Part shown: piece after piece, positions 18-4,847 of the stretch
Numbering within the stretch: the stretch's first letter is position 1
How the letters are laid out: every line of letters starts with the position of its first letter
Assembly (NCBI GenBank): GCA_012729095.1
Contig: JAAYDU010000009.1
Span: 1-34,946, forward strand
DNA length: 34,946 bases
Source of the DNA: Methanobacteriota archaeon
GTDB lineage: Archaea > Thermoplasmatota > Thermoplasmata > Methanomassiliicoccales > UBA472
Reading direction: 5' to 3'
Position numbers and translations under genes: made by a program
Notes under the pieces: generated by a model
Told to the model about the DNA's origin: nothing
Seen by the model: the letters and a program-made list of their open reading frames with translations, nothing else
Database searches by the model: none

Positions 18-497
18 ATGGCAGAGACTATCGAAGTGTTAGTGGATGGCGGCAAGGCCACCCCCGGCCCGCCGCTGGGACCCGCCTTGGGCCCGACGGG
101 CATAAACGTCGTTCAGGTCGTAGGCGCTATCAACGAGAAGACCAGGGGATTCGTAGGCATGAAGGTCCCGGTGAAGGTCATAATCGACCAGAAGACCAAG
201 ACCTTCGAGATAAAGGTCGGCACGCCGCCCACCTCCGCCCTGCTGTTCAAGGAGCTGGGAATAGAGAAGGGCGCGGGGGCCCCCAAGTCCGGGAAGGCCG
301 GCAACATCACCATAGAGCAGGCCAAGAAGATCGTCGACATGAAACAGGACTCCCTGACCGGCGCTGACATGAAGGCCCAGGTCCTAGAGGTCCTAGGCAC
401 CTGCGCCTCCTGCGGCATAACCGTGGAGGGCAAGGAGGCCAAGGACATGCAGGCGGAGATCAAGGCCGGCAAGTGGGACGACCAGCTGAAAGCCTGA
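18..497 (+). CDS. rpl11: 50S ribosomal protein L11 (uL11)
   Basis: Stalk-base protein that binds the GTPase-associated region of 23S rRNA with the P0/L12 stalk. The 159-residue length fits archaeal L11. The N-terminal proline/glycine-rich segment (residues about 16-31, TPGPPLGPALGPTGIN) is the family hallmark, and the C-terminal rRNA-binding domain carries the usual Thr-Gly-Ala-Asp and Cys-Gly-Ile stretch. A strong ribosome binding site (GAAGGAGAG, bases 1-9) precedes the ATG. It is the first gene of the L11-L1-P0-L12 block. A T tract and a new TATA box follow it, so the downstream genes may also have their own promoter. Confidence 0.97.
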   Translation: MAETIEVLVDGGKATPGPPLGPALGPTGINVVQVVGAINEKTRGFVGMKVPVKVIIDQKTKTFEIKVGTPPTSALLFKELGIEKGAGAPKSGKAGNITIEQAKKIVDMKQDSLTGADMKAQVLEVLGTCASCGITVEGKEAKDMQAEIKAGKWDDQLKA

Positions 498-533: not shown

Positions 534-541
534 ACGATATC

Positions 542-549
542 TTTATAAA
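542..549 (+). promoter_or_regulatory. TATA box for the L1-P0-L12 unit
   Basis: TTTATAAA lies 84 bases before the chosen L1 start. Archaeal TATA boxes sit about 25-30 bases before the transcription start, which predicts a start near 570-575 and a leader of about 50 nucleotides containing the hairpin described separately. Confidence 0.6.
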
Positions 550-578
550 CGGCAGGGTGATTAGGGGGCCTTACCAAA

Positions 579-619
579 CTGTAGGAGAGCATCAATGGCT
601 CGTTGGAACTACAGGAGGG
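579..619 (+). promoter_or_regulatory. Candidate L1 autoregulatory hairpin in the L1 leader
   Basis: CTGTAG (579-584) pairs perfectly with CTACAG (609-614). Inside, GAGC (587-590) pairs with GCTC (598-601). The two helices are separated by an asymmetric internal loop, GA on the left and GTTGGAA on the right. The right arm abuts the ribosome binding site (about 614-619), just before the TTG start at 626. Ribosomal protein L1 is known to repress its own mRNA by binding a copy of its 23S site built as short helices around an asymmetric internal loop, so this is a good candidate. The assignment is inferred from shape, not from an alignment. Confidence 0.5.
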
Positions 620-625
620 ATCGAA

Positions 626-1264
626 TTGGCAGAAAAAGCAACCGTTACGGCCGTTAAGAAAGCCTTGGAGCACTCTCCAAAGCGCAATTTTAAACAAACG
701 GTCGACCTGTCCATCAACCTGAAGGATGTGGACCTGTCCATACCCAAGAACAGGATACAGGAGGACATCATTCTGCCTCACGGTAGGGGAAAGCCAGTCA
801 AGGTCTGTGTCTTCGGTAGCGGAGAGATGCTGCTCAAGGCCAAGGACGTGGCCGACAGGGTCGTGTCCGTGGAGGAACTTAGCACCATCGCCGACGACAA
901 GAAGCAGGCCAAGAAGATGGCAAACGATTTCGAGTATTTCATCGCGGAGGCCCCGCTGATGCCCACGATCGGTAAGAGACTGGGTATCGTGCTGGGTCCT
1001 CGCGGTAAGATGCCGAAGCCGATCCCCCCGGGAGCGGACCCCACGTCCATGATAGACAACCTTCGCAAGTCGGTGTCCATCAGGACCAGGGACAAGATGA
1101 CCTTCCACACCGCCGTCGGGACCACGGACATGACGCCAGAGGACATAGCCGACAACATAGAGCTCATCGTCAAGAGAGTGGGGATGAAGCTCGAAAAGGG
1201 CACCATGAACATCAGGTCCGCTTTCGTGAAGACCACCATGGGACCCTCCGAGAAGGTGATTTGA
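626..1264 (+). CDS. rpl1: 50S ribosomal protein L1 (uL1)
   Basis: L1 forms the mobile E-site stalk of the large subunit and, in archaea and bacteria, represses its own operon. The frame is open from 473, but the chosen TTG at 626 is preceded by AGGAGGG at ideal spacing and gives a 212-residue protein of normal archaeal length starting AEKATVTAVKKAL. The earlier ATG at 473 would add unrelated sequence that overlaps L11, the T tract and the TATA box. The family signature LGPRGKMPKP is at residues 123-132. The P0 gene follows after a 13-base gap. Confidence 0.96.
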   Translation: MAEKATVTAVKKALEHSPKRNFKQTVDLSINLKDVDLSIPKNRIQEDIILPHGRGKPVKVCVFGSGEMLLKAKDVADRVVSVEELSTIADDKKQAKKMANDFEYFIAEAPLMPTIGKRLGIVLGPRGKMPKPIPPGADPTSMIDNLRKSVSIRTRDKMTFHTAVGTTDMTPEDIADNIELIVKRVGMKLEKGTMNIRSAFVKTTMGPSEKVI

Positions 1265-1277
1265 GGAGGTTCCAAGC

Positions 1278-2273
1278 ATGGCACATGTAGCGAAGTGGAA
1301 AAAGGAAAGGGTGCAGGAGCTTGTGGACATGATGGTCCACAGCCATGTCGTGGGCATTGTCGATCTGCACGGCATTCCCGCTGCCCAGATGATCTCCATG
1401 CGCGCCGTGCTGCGCGGTAAGGCCGACGTGAACATGACCAGGAACACATTGATGGACCTGGCCATCACCGAGGCCGCCAAGCAGAGGCCGGGCCTGGAGC
1501 AGCTGAAGCAGCTAGTTGACGGACAGTGCGCGATCGTCACCACGGACGAGAACCCGTTCAAGCTATTCCGCCAGATGGAGGCCACCAAGACCCCGGCCCC
1601 GGCAAAGTCCGGAGACATAGCGCCGGAGGACATCGCGGTCAAGGCGGGGGACACCCCGTTCAAGCCGGGCCCCATCATCGGAGAGCTGCAGAAAGCTGGC
1701 ATCCCCGCCGCCATCGAGGGTGGGAAGATCATCATCAAGAAGGACAAGGTCCTCGTCCCCAAGGGCGAGCCCGTGCCCGATGAGGTCGCCAAGGTGCTGG
1801 CCAAGCTGGAGATCCTGCCCATGATCGTGGGCATGGACCTCCGCGCCGCCTTCGAGGACGGCGTGCTGTACGGGAAGGACGTCCTGAACATACCGGCGGG
1901 CCACTACACCAACATGTTGGGACTGGCCGCCAGGAATGCCCTTGGCTTGAGCTTGTCTATAGCTTATGTCACGCCTCAGACTGTCACGCCCTTGCTATCC
2001 AAGGCCTATCGCGAAGCGATGGCCCTGAGCGTGGCTGGCGCGTTCCCGACCAAGGAGAGCATAGCTGCCATCCTTGCGAAGGCTGACGCGCAGATGATGA
2101 CCTTGGCCTCGATCACCGGTCTGGAAGATGACCGTATAAAGAACAGGATGGCTGCGGCCCCCGCAGCCAGCCCGGTGAACGAGCCCAAGGCCGCTGAGGC
2201 CGAGAAAGAAGATGAGGAGGAGCAGGTCAGCGAGGAGGAAGCCGCTGCTGGCCTGAGCTCGCTCTTCGATTGA
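1278..2273 (+). CDS. rplP0: Acidic ribosomal protein P0 (uL10)
   Basis: P0 anchors the L12 dimers to the ribosome next to L11. At 331 residues it has the archaeal layout: an N-terminal rRNA-binding domain, the inserted archaeal/eukaryotic domain, helical L12-docking spine, then an Ala-rich hinge and a very acidic tail ending in GLSSLFD. That tail is nearly the same as the end of L12, a known feature of archaeal P-stalk proteins that recruits translation factors. GGAGG sits before the ATG. L12 follows after 12 bases. Confidence 0.97.
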   Translation: MAHVAKWKKERVQELVDMMVHSHVVGIVDLHGIPAAQMISMRAVLRGKADVNMTRNTLMDLAITEAAKQRPGLEQLKQLVDGQCAIVTTDENPFKLFRQMEATKTPAPAKSGDIAPEDIAVKAGDTPFKPGPIIGELQKAGIPAAIEGGKIIIKKDKVLVPKGEPVPDEVAKVLAKLEILPMIVGMDLRAAFEDGVLYGKDVLNIPAGHYTNMLGLAARNALGLSLSIAYVTPQTVTPLLSKAYREAMALSVAGAFPTKESIAAILAKADAQMMTLASITGLEDDRIKNRMAAAPAASPVNEPKAAEAEKEDEEEQVSEEEAAAGLSSLFD

Positions 2274-2731: not shown

Positions 2732-3688
2732 ATGCCGATGAAGCTAGGAGACATCTACCGGTTCGCCGTTCAATTGGCCAAGGAGAACGACCCCCGAACC
2801 GCGGAGGAGCTGGAGGACGACCTTCGCCGCACCGAGGAGCGCTATCGGAAGCTGGACGATGGGGAGAAGGAGCTGTTCGACGCCGATGCCCTCTGGAACC
2901 CCTATGCCGACTCCCGCCTGGTGCACGGGAACCCCGACACGGATGTGGGTGGCGTGCTGTGGGGCATCGATATAGGCACCGGCGAGATGCTGCTTGCCGA
3001 CCGCCTGCGGGAGAGAGGAAGGAGAGTGGACGCGGTGTTCGGCCATCATCCCCTGGGCCGGGCCCGGCCCAAGTTCGGGGATGTCCTGCATCTCCAGGAA
3101 TACATGTTCGCCCAGATGGGAATGCCAATAACCTGGGCCGAGGACATCCTAGCACCGCGCATCAAGGAGGTGCATCGCAGCAGCGCCCCCTCCAACTACG
3201 ACCAGGCGGTGGATGCCGCTCGATTGCTGGACCTGCCGCTGATGTGCCTGCACTCTGTGACCGACAACCTGGTGGACCGTTACCTCAACGAGCTGATGGA
3301 GGAGAGGGGGCCCAAGCGGGTGGACGACCTCATATCCGTGCTAATGGAGCTTCCTGAGTTCCGGCACGCCGCCGCCAATAATAACCCCCCGGAGGTGTAT
3401 GTGGGGGACAGGAAGCGCCGGACAGGGAAGATCGCCCTGAAGATGACCGGGGGGACCGCAGGGCCCAAGGAGATGTACGAGGGGCTGGCCGACGCGGGCG
3501 TGGGCACCATAGTGTTCATGCACCTGCCGGAATCACACCTCGAGGAGGCCAGGAAGCATCACATGAACGTGGTGGTGTCCGGGCACATGGCCACCGATTC
3601 CCTGGGCATCAACCTGCTGGCCGACCGGTTGGAGGACCGTGGGCTGCAGGTGATCCCCTGCTCGGGGCTCATACGAGCCAGAAGGTAG
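2732..3688 (+). CDS. NIF3-like (NGG1-interacting factor 3 family) protein
   Basis: The 318-residue protein resembles the NIF3/DUF34 family of presumed metal-binding proteins. A GHHPLGRA motif is near residues 108-115, and the C-terminal end contains VVVSGHMATDSLGINLL and VIPCSG, matching the paired His/Asp/Glu metal site region of the family. The first 60 residues are a charged helical extension not usual in bacterial members. The family's biochemical role is still unclear; a metal-dependent hydrolase has been suggested. The ATG at 2732 is used; a second ATG lies two codons later. orc1/cdc6 begins 4 bases after the stop, so the two are probably co-transcribed. Confidence 0.72.
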   Translation: MPMKLGDIYRFAVQLAKENDPRTAEELEDDLRRTEERYRKLDDGEKELFDADALWNPYADSRLVHGNPDTDVGGVLWGIDIGTGEMLLADRLRERGRRVDAVFGHHPLGRARPKFGDVLHLQEYMFAQMGMPITWAEDILAPRIKEVHRSSAPSNYDQAVDAARLLDLPLMCLHSVTDNLVDRYLNELMEERGPKRVDDLISVLMELPEFRHAAANNNPPEVYVGDRKRRTGKIALKMTGGTAGPKEMYEGLADAGVGTIVFMHLPESHLEEARKHHMNVVVSGHMATDSLGINLLADRLEDRGLQVIPCSGLIRARR

Positions 3689-3692
3689 GAAA

Positions 3693-4847
3693 ATGAGGAA
3701 TCCACGCCTGTTCAAGGACCAATCAAAGCTCTCGTTCGACTACGTGCCCGACAAGCTCTGCCATCGCGAGGAGCAGCTGGGCCGCCTGGAGATGCTCTTC
3801 CGCCCGGTGCTGGAGGGCAGCATGTCCCAGACGGCCTTCCTGATAGGCAGCGTGGGTACGGGGAAGACCGCCACCTCCAAGCGCTTCTGCCTGGACCTCG
3901 TCACCGCCGCCCGGGAAAGGGGGCGCTCCATGGACTTCATAATCGTCAACTGCCGGCAGCGTTCCACCGAGGTGGCCGTTCTGCGGCGGATCGTGATGCA
4001 CTTTGACGAGAACTTTCCTGACCGGGGGTTCTCCACGGAGGAGATGCTGCGCTCGATACGCAGGCACCTGGAGAAGCGGAAGATGCACCTGGTGGTGGTC
4101 CTTGACGAGGCGGACGTGCTGCTGGTCAAGGGAGCTGGCGATCTGGTGTATCAGCTCACCCGCTTCGACGAGGAGGTGGTCGGAGGGCGGCCGTCAATGT
4201 CGGTGATCATGATATCGCAGAAGAACGTGCTGGATATGCTGGACGCGGCCTCGTCATCGACCTTCCGGAGGGCCAACGCCATACGCTTCGACAGGTACGG
4301 AGCGCGGGACCTGGCCGACATATTGCGGACGCGCACAGACCTGGCCTTCTTCCCCAGGGCGGTGAGGCAGGACTCCTTGGACCTCATGGCCGACATAGCC
4401 GGTGAGTTCGGTGACGCCCGGTTCGCCATCGAACTGCTGGACAAGGCGGGGATGCTGGCCGAGGAGGAGGGGTCCGAGCATCTGTCCCCCGAGCATGTGC
4501 GCGGGGCGAAGGCCCTAACCTACTCGGTGGTCACCGAGAGCAAGATCGAGGACCTTGACAAGCAGCACAAGATGGTGCTATTGGCCGTGGCCCGGTCCAT
4601 CAAGGACCAGGCGTACGTGAGGACGCCCGAGGCGGAATCGGCGTACCGGCGGGTGGCCGAGGAGTACGGGGAGAAGCCTCGCGGGCATACCATGTTCTGG
4701 TCGTACCTGCAGGACCTTAGCAACCAGGGGCTGGTCGGAACCAGGGTGGCCAACGAGGAGACTGGCGGACGCACCACGTACATATCGCTCCCGGACGTTC
4801 CGGCCAAGGTTGTGCGCCAGCGCTTGGAGGAGAGCCTGGGGGCCTAA
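3693..4847 (+). CDS. orc1: Orc1/Cdc6-type replication initiator
   Basis: An AAA+ protein of the archaeal Orc1/Cdc6 family, which binds origin recognition boxes and loads the MCM helicase. Walker A is GSVGTGKT (residues 52-59) and Walker B LVVVLDEA (133-140). The sensor and lid regions follow, then a C-terminal winged helix (about 290-384). At 384 residues it is of normal size. A short gap of 4 bases to the NIF3-like gene implies co-transcription. Archaeal orc1 genes often lie beside an origin, but here both flanks are only a few tens of bases and carry no visible repeats. This is therefore probably not the origin, or it is a secondary paralogue. Confidence 0.93.
   Translation: MRNPRLFKDQSKLSFDYVPDKLCHREEQLGRLEMLFRPVLEGSMSQTAFLIGSVGTGKTATSKRFCLDLVTAARERGRSMDFIIVNCRQRSTEVAVLRRIVMHFDENFPDRGFSTEEMLRSIRRHLEKRKMHLVVVLDEADVLLVKGAGDLVYQLTRFDEEVVGGRPSMSVIMISQKNVLDMLDAASSSTFRRANAIRFDRYGARDLADILRTRTDLAFFPRAVRQDSLDLMADIAGEFGDARFAIELLDKAGMLAEEEGSEHLSPEHVRGAKALTYSVVTESKIEDLDKQHKMVLLAVARSIKDQAYVRTPEAESAYRRVAEEYGEKPRGHTMFWSYLQDLSNQGLVGTRVANEETGGRTTYISLPDVPAKVVRQRLEESLGA

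Follow-up and report, generated by a model that had tools for sequence, protein, structure and literature searches.

The window is the whole stretch of DNA that was analysed, 34,946 nucleotides in length, and is one of the 72 contigs that make up a fragmented assembly of an archaeal genome. At its left end it carries genes for ribosomal proteins L11, L1, L10 and L12, and the closest named relatives of its L1 protein are in Methanomassiliicoccales and Methanomassiliicoccaceae genomes. The L11 and L1 genes are separated by a gap of 128 bases, which contains a TATA-like box followed by a hairpin. The features of the locus are as follows.

18 to 497, forward strand: ribosomal protein L11 gene (Pfam PF00298 and PF03946), upstream and outside the predicted regulated unit
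541 to 550, forward strand: TATA-like element ctttataaac, a putative promoter element located by its sequence between the L11 and L1 genes
579 to 584, forward strand: 5' strand of helix I, CTGTAG, pairing with 609 to 614
585 to 586, forward strand: short strand of the internal loop, GA, between helix I and helix II
587 to 590, forward strand: 5' strand of helix II, GAGC, pairing with 598 to 601
591 to 597, forward strand: apical loop, atcaatg; both its length and its sequence vary in the alignment of order-level relatives
598 to 601, forward strand: 3' strand of helix II, GCTC, supported by alignment and covariation of relatives
602 to 608, forward strand: long strand of the internal loop, GTTGGAA, 7 nt
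609 to 614, forward strand: 3' strand of helix I, CTACAG, supported by alignment and covariation of relatives
613 to 619, forward strand: Shine-Dalgarno sequence of L1, AGGAGGG, with two bases in common with helix I
626 to 1264, forward strand: ribosomal protein L1 (uL1) gene with a TTG start (Pfam PF00687, E 1.5e-54)
1278 to 2273, forward strand: ribosomal protein L10 gene (Pfam PF00466 and PF17777), 13 nt past L1
2286 to 2594, forward strand: gene of ribosomal protein L12, the acidic stalk protein (Pfam PF00428), 12 nt past L10

The hairpin sits directly 5' of the L1 start on the mRNA that encodes L1, if the extent of the transcript is judged from the TATA-like box. L1 is presumed to be both the repressor and the first regulated gene, and L10 and L12 are probably co-regulated with it. 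A second L1 site before L11, as is found in some bacteria, was considered and rejected. No such hairpin precedes L11 in any of the 19 relatives with a located L11 start, and control pieces gave 11 matches in 342. Further downstream, an open frame of 318 aa without a Pfam match (2732 to 3685) lies 3' of L12, and a Cdc6/Orc1-like AAA+ protein is encoded near the ribosomal operon at 3693 to 4844.

The sequence-only reading had described two short helices around an internal loop, with GA on one side and a 7-base strand on the other. This structure is present at 579 to 614 with GTTGGAA as the 7-base strand. The minimum-energy fold of 578 to 620 is exactly this hairpin (-11.3 kcal/mol), and it is retained in the folds of the longer pieces 570 to 640 and 566 to 640. 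Downstream of CTACAG the sequence continues as GAGGGATCGAA up to the L1 TTG at 626, and AGGAGGG ends six bases 5' of this start. The right arm had also been said to touch the ribosome binding site of L1. The contact is real but understated, as A613 and G614, the last two bases of the right arm, are themselves part of AGGAGGG. Most of the Shine-Dalgarno sequence is unpaired in the fold of 578 to 620.

The fold energy of the single sequence is no better than chance. Shuffled sequences folded as well as the native one in 12 of 200 cases for the 43-nt piece, 37 of 200 for the 71-nt stretch and 75 of 200 for the 75-nt stretch; thermodynamic significance of the lone hairpin was therefore rejected. 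On the two strands of the window together, the loosest form of the structural descriptor given below has 39 matches, counting the hairpin itself, and a stricter form has six. No Rfam 15 family was found at 480 to 760 up to an E value of 10, and only a tRNA was found in the whole window at gathering thresholds. What makes the hairpin convincing is the comparison with relatives and not its fold energy.

A search of 61 genomes from the genus, family and order gave an L1 match in 58. One of these (G055) was left out since its L1 match lacks the N-terminus, leaving 57 loci. The hairpin lies directly 5' of L1, with GGAGG or a close variant downstream of it, in all 57 loci. The short strand is GA in 56 and AA in the remaining one (L054). 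A TATA-like match is located 30 to 36 nt 5' of the hairpin in 50 of the 57; three others have the match at 16 to 19 nt, three have TTTTAAG instead and one is lost to the end of a contig. Just 5' of the hairpin and 3' of its TATA-like box, L011 also has an inverted repeat (ggtaggcc...ggcctacc). L014 has a weaker version of this repeat, and in most of the order's remaining loci it was not observed.

The alignment used for covariation contains the 57 loci as 50 distinct rows, with ten pairs and 499 pair cells. The cells are paired in 99.8% of cases, compared to 93.6% in shuffles and 23 to 53% when the pairing is slid along the alignment. Changes on both sides of a pair occur in 35 cells against 7.4 in shuffles, and affect five of the ten pairs. 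The covariation score is 0.285 against 0.154 in shuffles, none of 500 of which scored as high. Slid pairings scored 0.032 to 0.200, the upper value, which is fairly high, being that of a slide by +3. If the pairs with a two-sided change are counted instead, the hairpin is equalled by 42 of the 500 shuffles. An alternative structure with two extra pairs gives the same picture (92.1% of cells paired).

In helix I, the two outer pairs change on both sides within the order and the inner pairs do so elsewhere in the phylum, while in helix II three of the four pairs change on both sides within the order. At four pair positions some relatives have G-U on the sense strand. Placed on an L1 protein tree, in which 23 of the 54 inner branches are weakly supported, the two-sided Watson-Crick changes require no fewer than 14 distinct events, which fall on six pairs. 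The sequence-only reading was staked on compensatory changes in relatives, and these were found here as well as in a second set from Poseidoniales-like genomes, described below.

A covariance model of the hairpin gave 61 matches at E 1 or better in the 61 genomes. Fifty-nine of these have at least 42.8 bits; the other two, with 18.6 and 17.0 bits, are at chance level. The strong matches comprise the 57 L1 loci, one site beside a second L1 fragment (G002) and one at a contig end in a genome without a detected L1 (G016). The model has no match in G037, G040 and G055; two of them lack an L1 match altogether and the other has a partial L1 only. It also finds 78 of 80 named loci, the 80 best of 192 relatives, although this is a check rather than independent proof and many of the genomes are shared with the 57. 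In one of the two misses the sequence begins inside the gene (L252, match from residue 33), and in the other the hairpin can be seen by eye with one mismatched pair (L250).

The hairpin had also been proposed to resemble an L1 binding site, and the L1 stalk of 23S rRNA was compared with it. No 23S gene was found in the window's own assembly. Full-length 23S genes from 32 relatives, including two of the same genus (L060 and L063), were aligned as a stand-in. The L1 stalk in these relatives reads GGCGG-GA-GAC ... GTC-AACGATGAAACA-CCGCC or close to it. Read by eye, the alignment has GA separating the two helices, and A as the last base of the long strand, in each of the 32. The hairpin's covariance model fails to score the stalk, with one 7.9-bit chance match in 15 loci. 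It misses the stalk because the rRNA has a long strand of 10 to 14 nt and a larger distal part. A descriptor was therefore made by hand after this failure. It requires a helix I of at least four pairs ending in G-C, then GA, a helix II of at least three pairs starting with G-C, and a strand of 4 to 14 nt ending in A. The descriptor matches 0 to 3 places per 2.9 kb 23S rRNA, and in 29 of the 32 these include the L1 stalk. The shared plan is thus borne out in the 32 relatives, and the hairpin appears to mimic the 23S L1 site in plan but not in full sequence.

Of 142 L1 loci from the whole phylum, 94 have a strict descriptor match in the leader, where dinucleotide shuffles average 1.5. The long strand is 7 nt in 62 of these matches and 5 nt in 23, and its first base is G in 79; the A at its end is a requirement of the descriptor. 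Outside the order, 243 genomes were searched, of which 229 gave an L1 match, and 85 loci were hand-picked from these for family spread. The strict descriptor matches 39 of the 85, from 18 of the 35 sampled family codes, including 3 of 3 loci in f8, 10 of 10 in f32, 5 of 9 in f24 and 6 of 14 in f9. It misses 48 of the 142 loci, with no match in f7 (0 of 8), f12 (0 of 4) or f23 (0 of 4) and eight of the 14 missed in f9. Relaxing the short strand adds about ten loci with CA, TA or AA for GA, one of them within the order; this search was run without a shuffle control and which rows count as sites is our own reading. Short strands of CA, TA or AA were seen in several families (L127, L133, L135, L137, L158, L169 and L173), and in L133, L135, L127 and L137 the long strand seems to contain an extra small hairpin.

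The first 160 bases of the gene gave 8 matches in 142 loci against a mean of 2.95 in shuffles. In-gene sites for the lineages without a leader site were therefore rejected as near background, and inspection of the gene starts by eye gave nothing consistent. The in-gene position of the Methanococcus type is likewise not the arrangement of the window, where the site (579 to 614) lies before the start at 626.

Families f24 and f32 resemble Poseidoniales in our reading. A set of 19 Poseidoniales-like sequences was anchored on the Shine-Dalgarno sequence and not on the structure. In helix I of this set, GCGG/CCGC, GUGG/CCAC and GCAG/CUGC replace GUAG/CUAC. The cells are paired in 96.0% of cases and four pairs have two-sided changes, with 1 of 500 shuffles as high on the latter. 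Since the Poseidoniales-like sequences change on both sides, helix pairs that are invariant in the order vary in step elsewhere. An outer CAC/GTG pairing that would enclose the Shine-Dalgarno sequence is also seen in f24 and f32 (L156 to L178); it is invariant in 19 of 19, so that no covariation signal is possible.

The distance from the hairpin to the L1 start is near-constant. Within the order the hairpin is often 45 to 85 nt past the preceding stop codon (a wide range), which leaves room for a promoter. In f8, f9, f24 and f32 it is 0 to 14 nt past the preceding stop where measured, which leaves little. The hairpin thus remains next to the L1 start both in these families and in the order, where the gene has a putative promoter of its own, however the promoter is arranged.

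Among the lineages lacking the site, f12 has a TATA-like box at about 25 to 35 nt from its start codon, the spacing that a leaderless mRNA would be expected to have. L126, L143, L151 and L152 (f12), L136 (f35) and L161 (f42) have a TATA-like box about 20 to 45 nt before the L1 start and no site. Judged from this spacing, the L1 mRNA of these loci looks leaderless or nearly so. L122, L130, L140 and L153 (f23) and L117 (f39) have no L1-type hairpin and have in common a word near CATTCCCGAGAACyACATTT, which is 3' of the TATA-like box and about 30 to 100 nt before L1.

The structure, the covariation, the position and the match to the rRNA plan together suggest that the hairpin is very probably a site on the L1 mRNA where ribosomal protein L1 binds and regulates its own synthesis. 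The proposal of a putative L1 site is thus supported both by the covariation and by the 23S stalk plan in relatives. The hairpin would act as a copy of the 23S L1 stalk junction that is gripped by L1. When free 23S rRNA is present, L1 would go to the rRNA. When L1 is in surplus, it would bind the hairpin, lock helix I and cover the overlapping Shine-Dalgarno sequence, which would block 30S subunits from starting on L1. The output of L10 and L12 may then fall as well through coupling. A separate promoter just 5' of the hairpin, if it is used, would place L11 outside the unit.

It is improbable that the element is a plain structural hairpin, which would work without a protein as a fixed brake or thermosensor that partly hides the Shine-Dalgarno sequence. 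Helix I does take two Shine-Dalgarno bases, and the outer CAC/GTG pairing encloses this sequence in the Poseidoniales-like genomes. However, the Shine-Dalgarno sequence is mostly free in the window fold of 578 to 620, and the genome-wide model search found the element only at L1. The unpaired GA and the geometry of the internal loop are also conserved and the loop plan equals that of the 23S L1 stalk.

A site for another ribosomal protein (L10, L10-L12 or L11), or a role in mRNA stability, is highly improbable. L10 and L12 are downstream in the operon, but the plan of the internal loop matches the L1 stalk, which is found in 29 of 32 by a descriptor that picks out so few places per 23S. An inverted repeat acting in the DNA as a transcription factor target downstream of the promoter would fit the near-constant distance of about 30 nt from the TATA-like box in the order, but is barely credible given that sense-strand G-U pairs at four positions fit RNA and not duplex DNA, and that the element in f8, f9, f24 and f32 leaves little room for a promoter where its distance was measured.

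The principle of L1 autoregulation was already known, including in archaea, and what appears to be new, if the hairpin is an L1 site, is the spread of the site, its fixed place at the Shine-Dalgarno sequence, its losses and its altered loops. The evidence tips slightly towards an L1 switch at the Shine-Dalgarno sequence that is ancestral to Thermoplasmatota and was kept while the transcription context changed. In Methanomassiliicoccales the switch would follow a promoter of its own, and in Poseidoniales-like and Thermoplasmatales-like genomes it would lie between the cistrons of L11 and L1. The switch would have been lost repeatedly where the L1 mRNA became leaderless, and its recognition loop modified in some lineages (CA, TA or AA for GA, plus the extra hairpin in the long strand), so that L1-RNA recognition drifted. 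To our knowledge, translational feedback by archaeal ribosomal proteins rests on very few studied operons. Outside the order the site has strict matches in 18 of the 35 family codes that were sampled, and it is absent from Rfam, which makes it a ready family model. The lineages with, without and with altered sites may also serve as a natural experiment on L1 dosage control after loss of the leader.

No archaeal L1 leader was found described for Methanomassiliicoccales or Thermoplasmata in the open-access literature, a scope outside which the key papers lie, and the accessible portion of a survey of 104 motifs makes no mention of an L1 leader (PMC2864571). Autoregulation by uL1 exists in bacteria and archaea, with mRNA sites that resemble the 23S site, and the complex of uL1 with rRNA is more stable than that with mRNA; L1 proteins of bacteria are also able to regulate L1 mRNAs of archaea (PMC10931766). 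In bacteria, the uL1 sites before rplK or rplA are irregular stem-loops that contain an internal bulge, mimic the 23S site and let uL1 repress translation (PMC10931766). The window site resembles them in its form, and probably in its mimicry and in repression by uL1. The bacterial sites are often located before L11 and regulate L11-L1 (PMC10931766), whereas the site here is before L1 with L10-L12 downstream. The L1 stalk of 23S rRNA (H76-H78) shares the two helices, the asymmetric loop, the GA on the short side and the long strand ending in A. Its long strand of 10 to 14 nt and larger distal hairpin set it apart from the mRNA site, in which the long strand is usually 5 to 7 nt.

Among archaea, Kraft (1999) is said to have described leader L1 sites in Archaeoglobus fulgidus and halophilic archaea, and in-gene sites in Methanococcus. 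The former resemble the window site in their 5' leader position, if the TATA-like box of the window is used; they belong to other phyla and are likened here by position alone and not by geometry. In Methanococcus the L1 site lies within the coding sequence, some 30 nt from its start. The sequence-only reading had set a leader site against this in-gene plan. The leader position fits the window if its TATA-like box is used, and the in-gene position is that of Methanococcus, but the novelty of a leader site is weaker in view of the sites reported for Archaeoglobus fulgidus and halophiles. For Methanococcus vannielii and M. jannaschii, an MvaL1-type site is reported on the mRNA of L1-L10-L12 (Mayer in 1998, Kraft in 1999 and Nevskaya in 2005). 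By this account it shares with the window site the L1-L10-L12 operon, the two helices, the asymmetric loop, the GA, the long strand ending in A and the 23S mimicry. The difference is one of place, as the Methanococcus site is within the coding sequence and the window site is before the start, where it overlaps the Shine-Dalgarno sequence.
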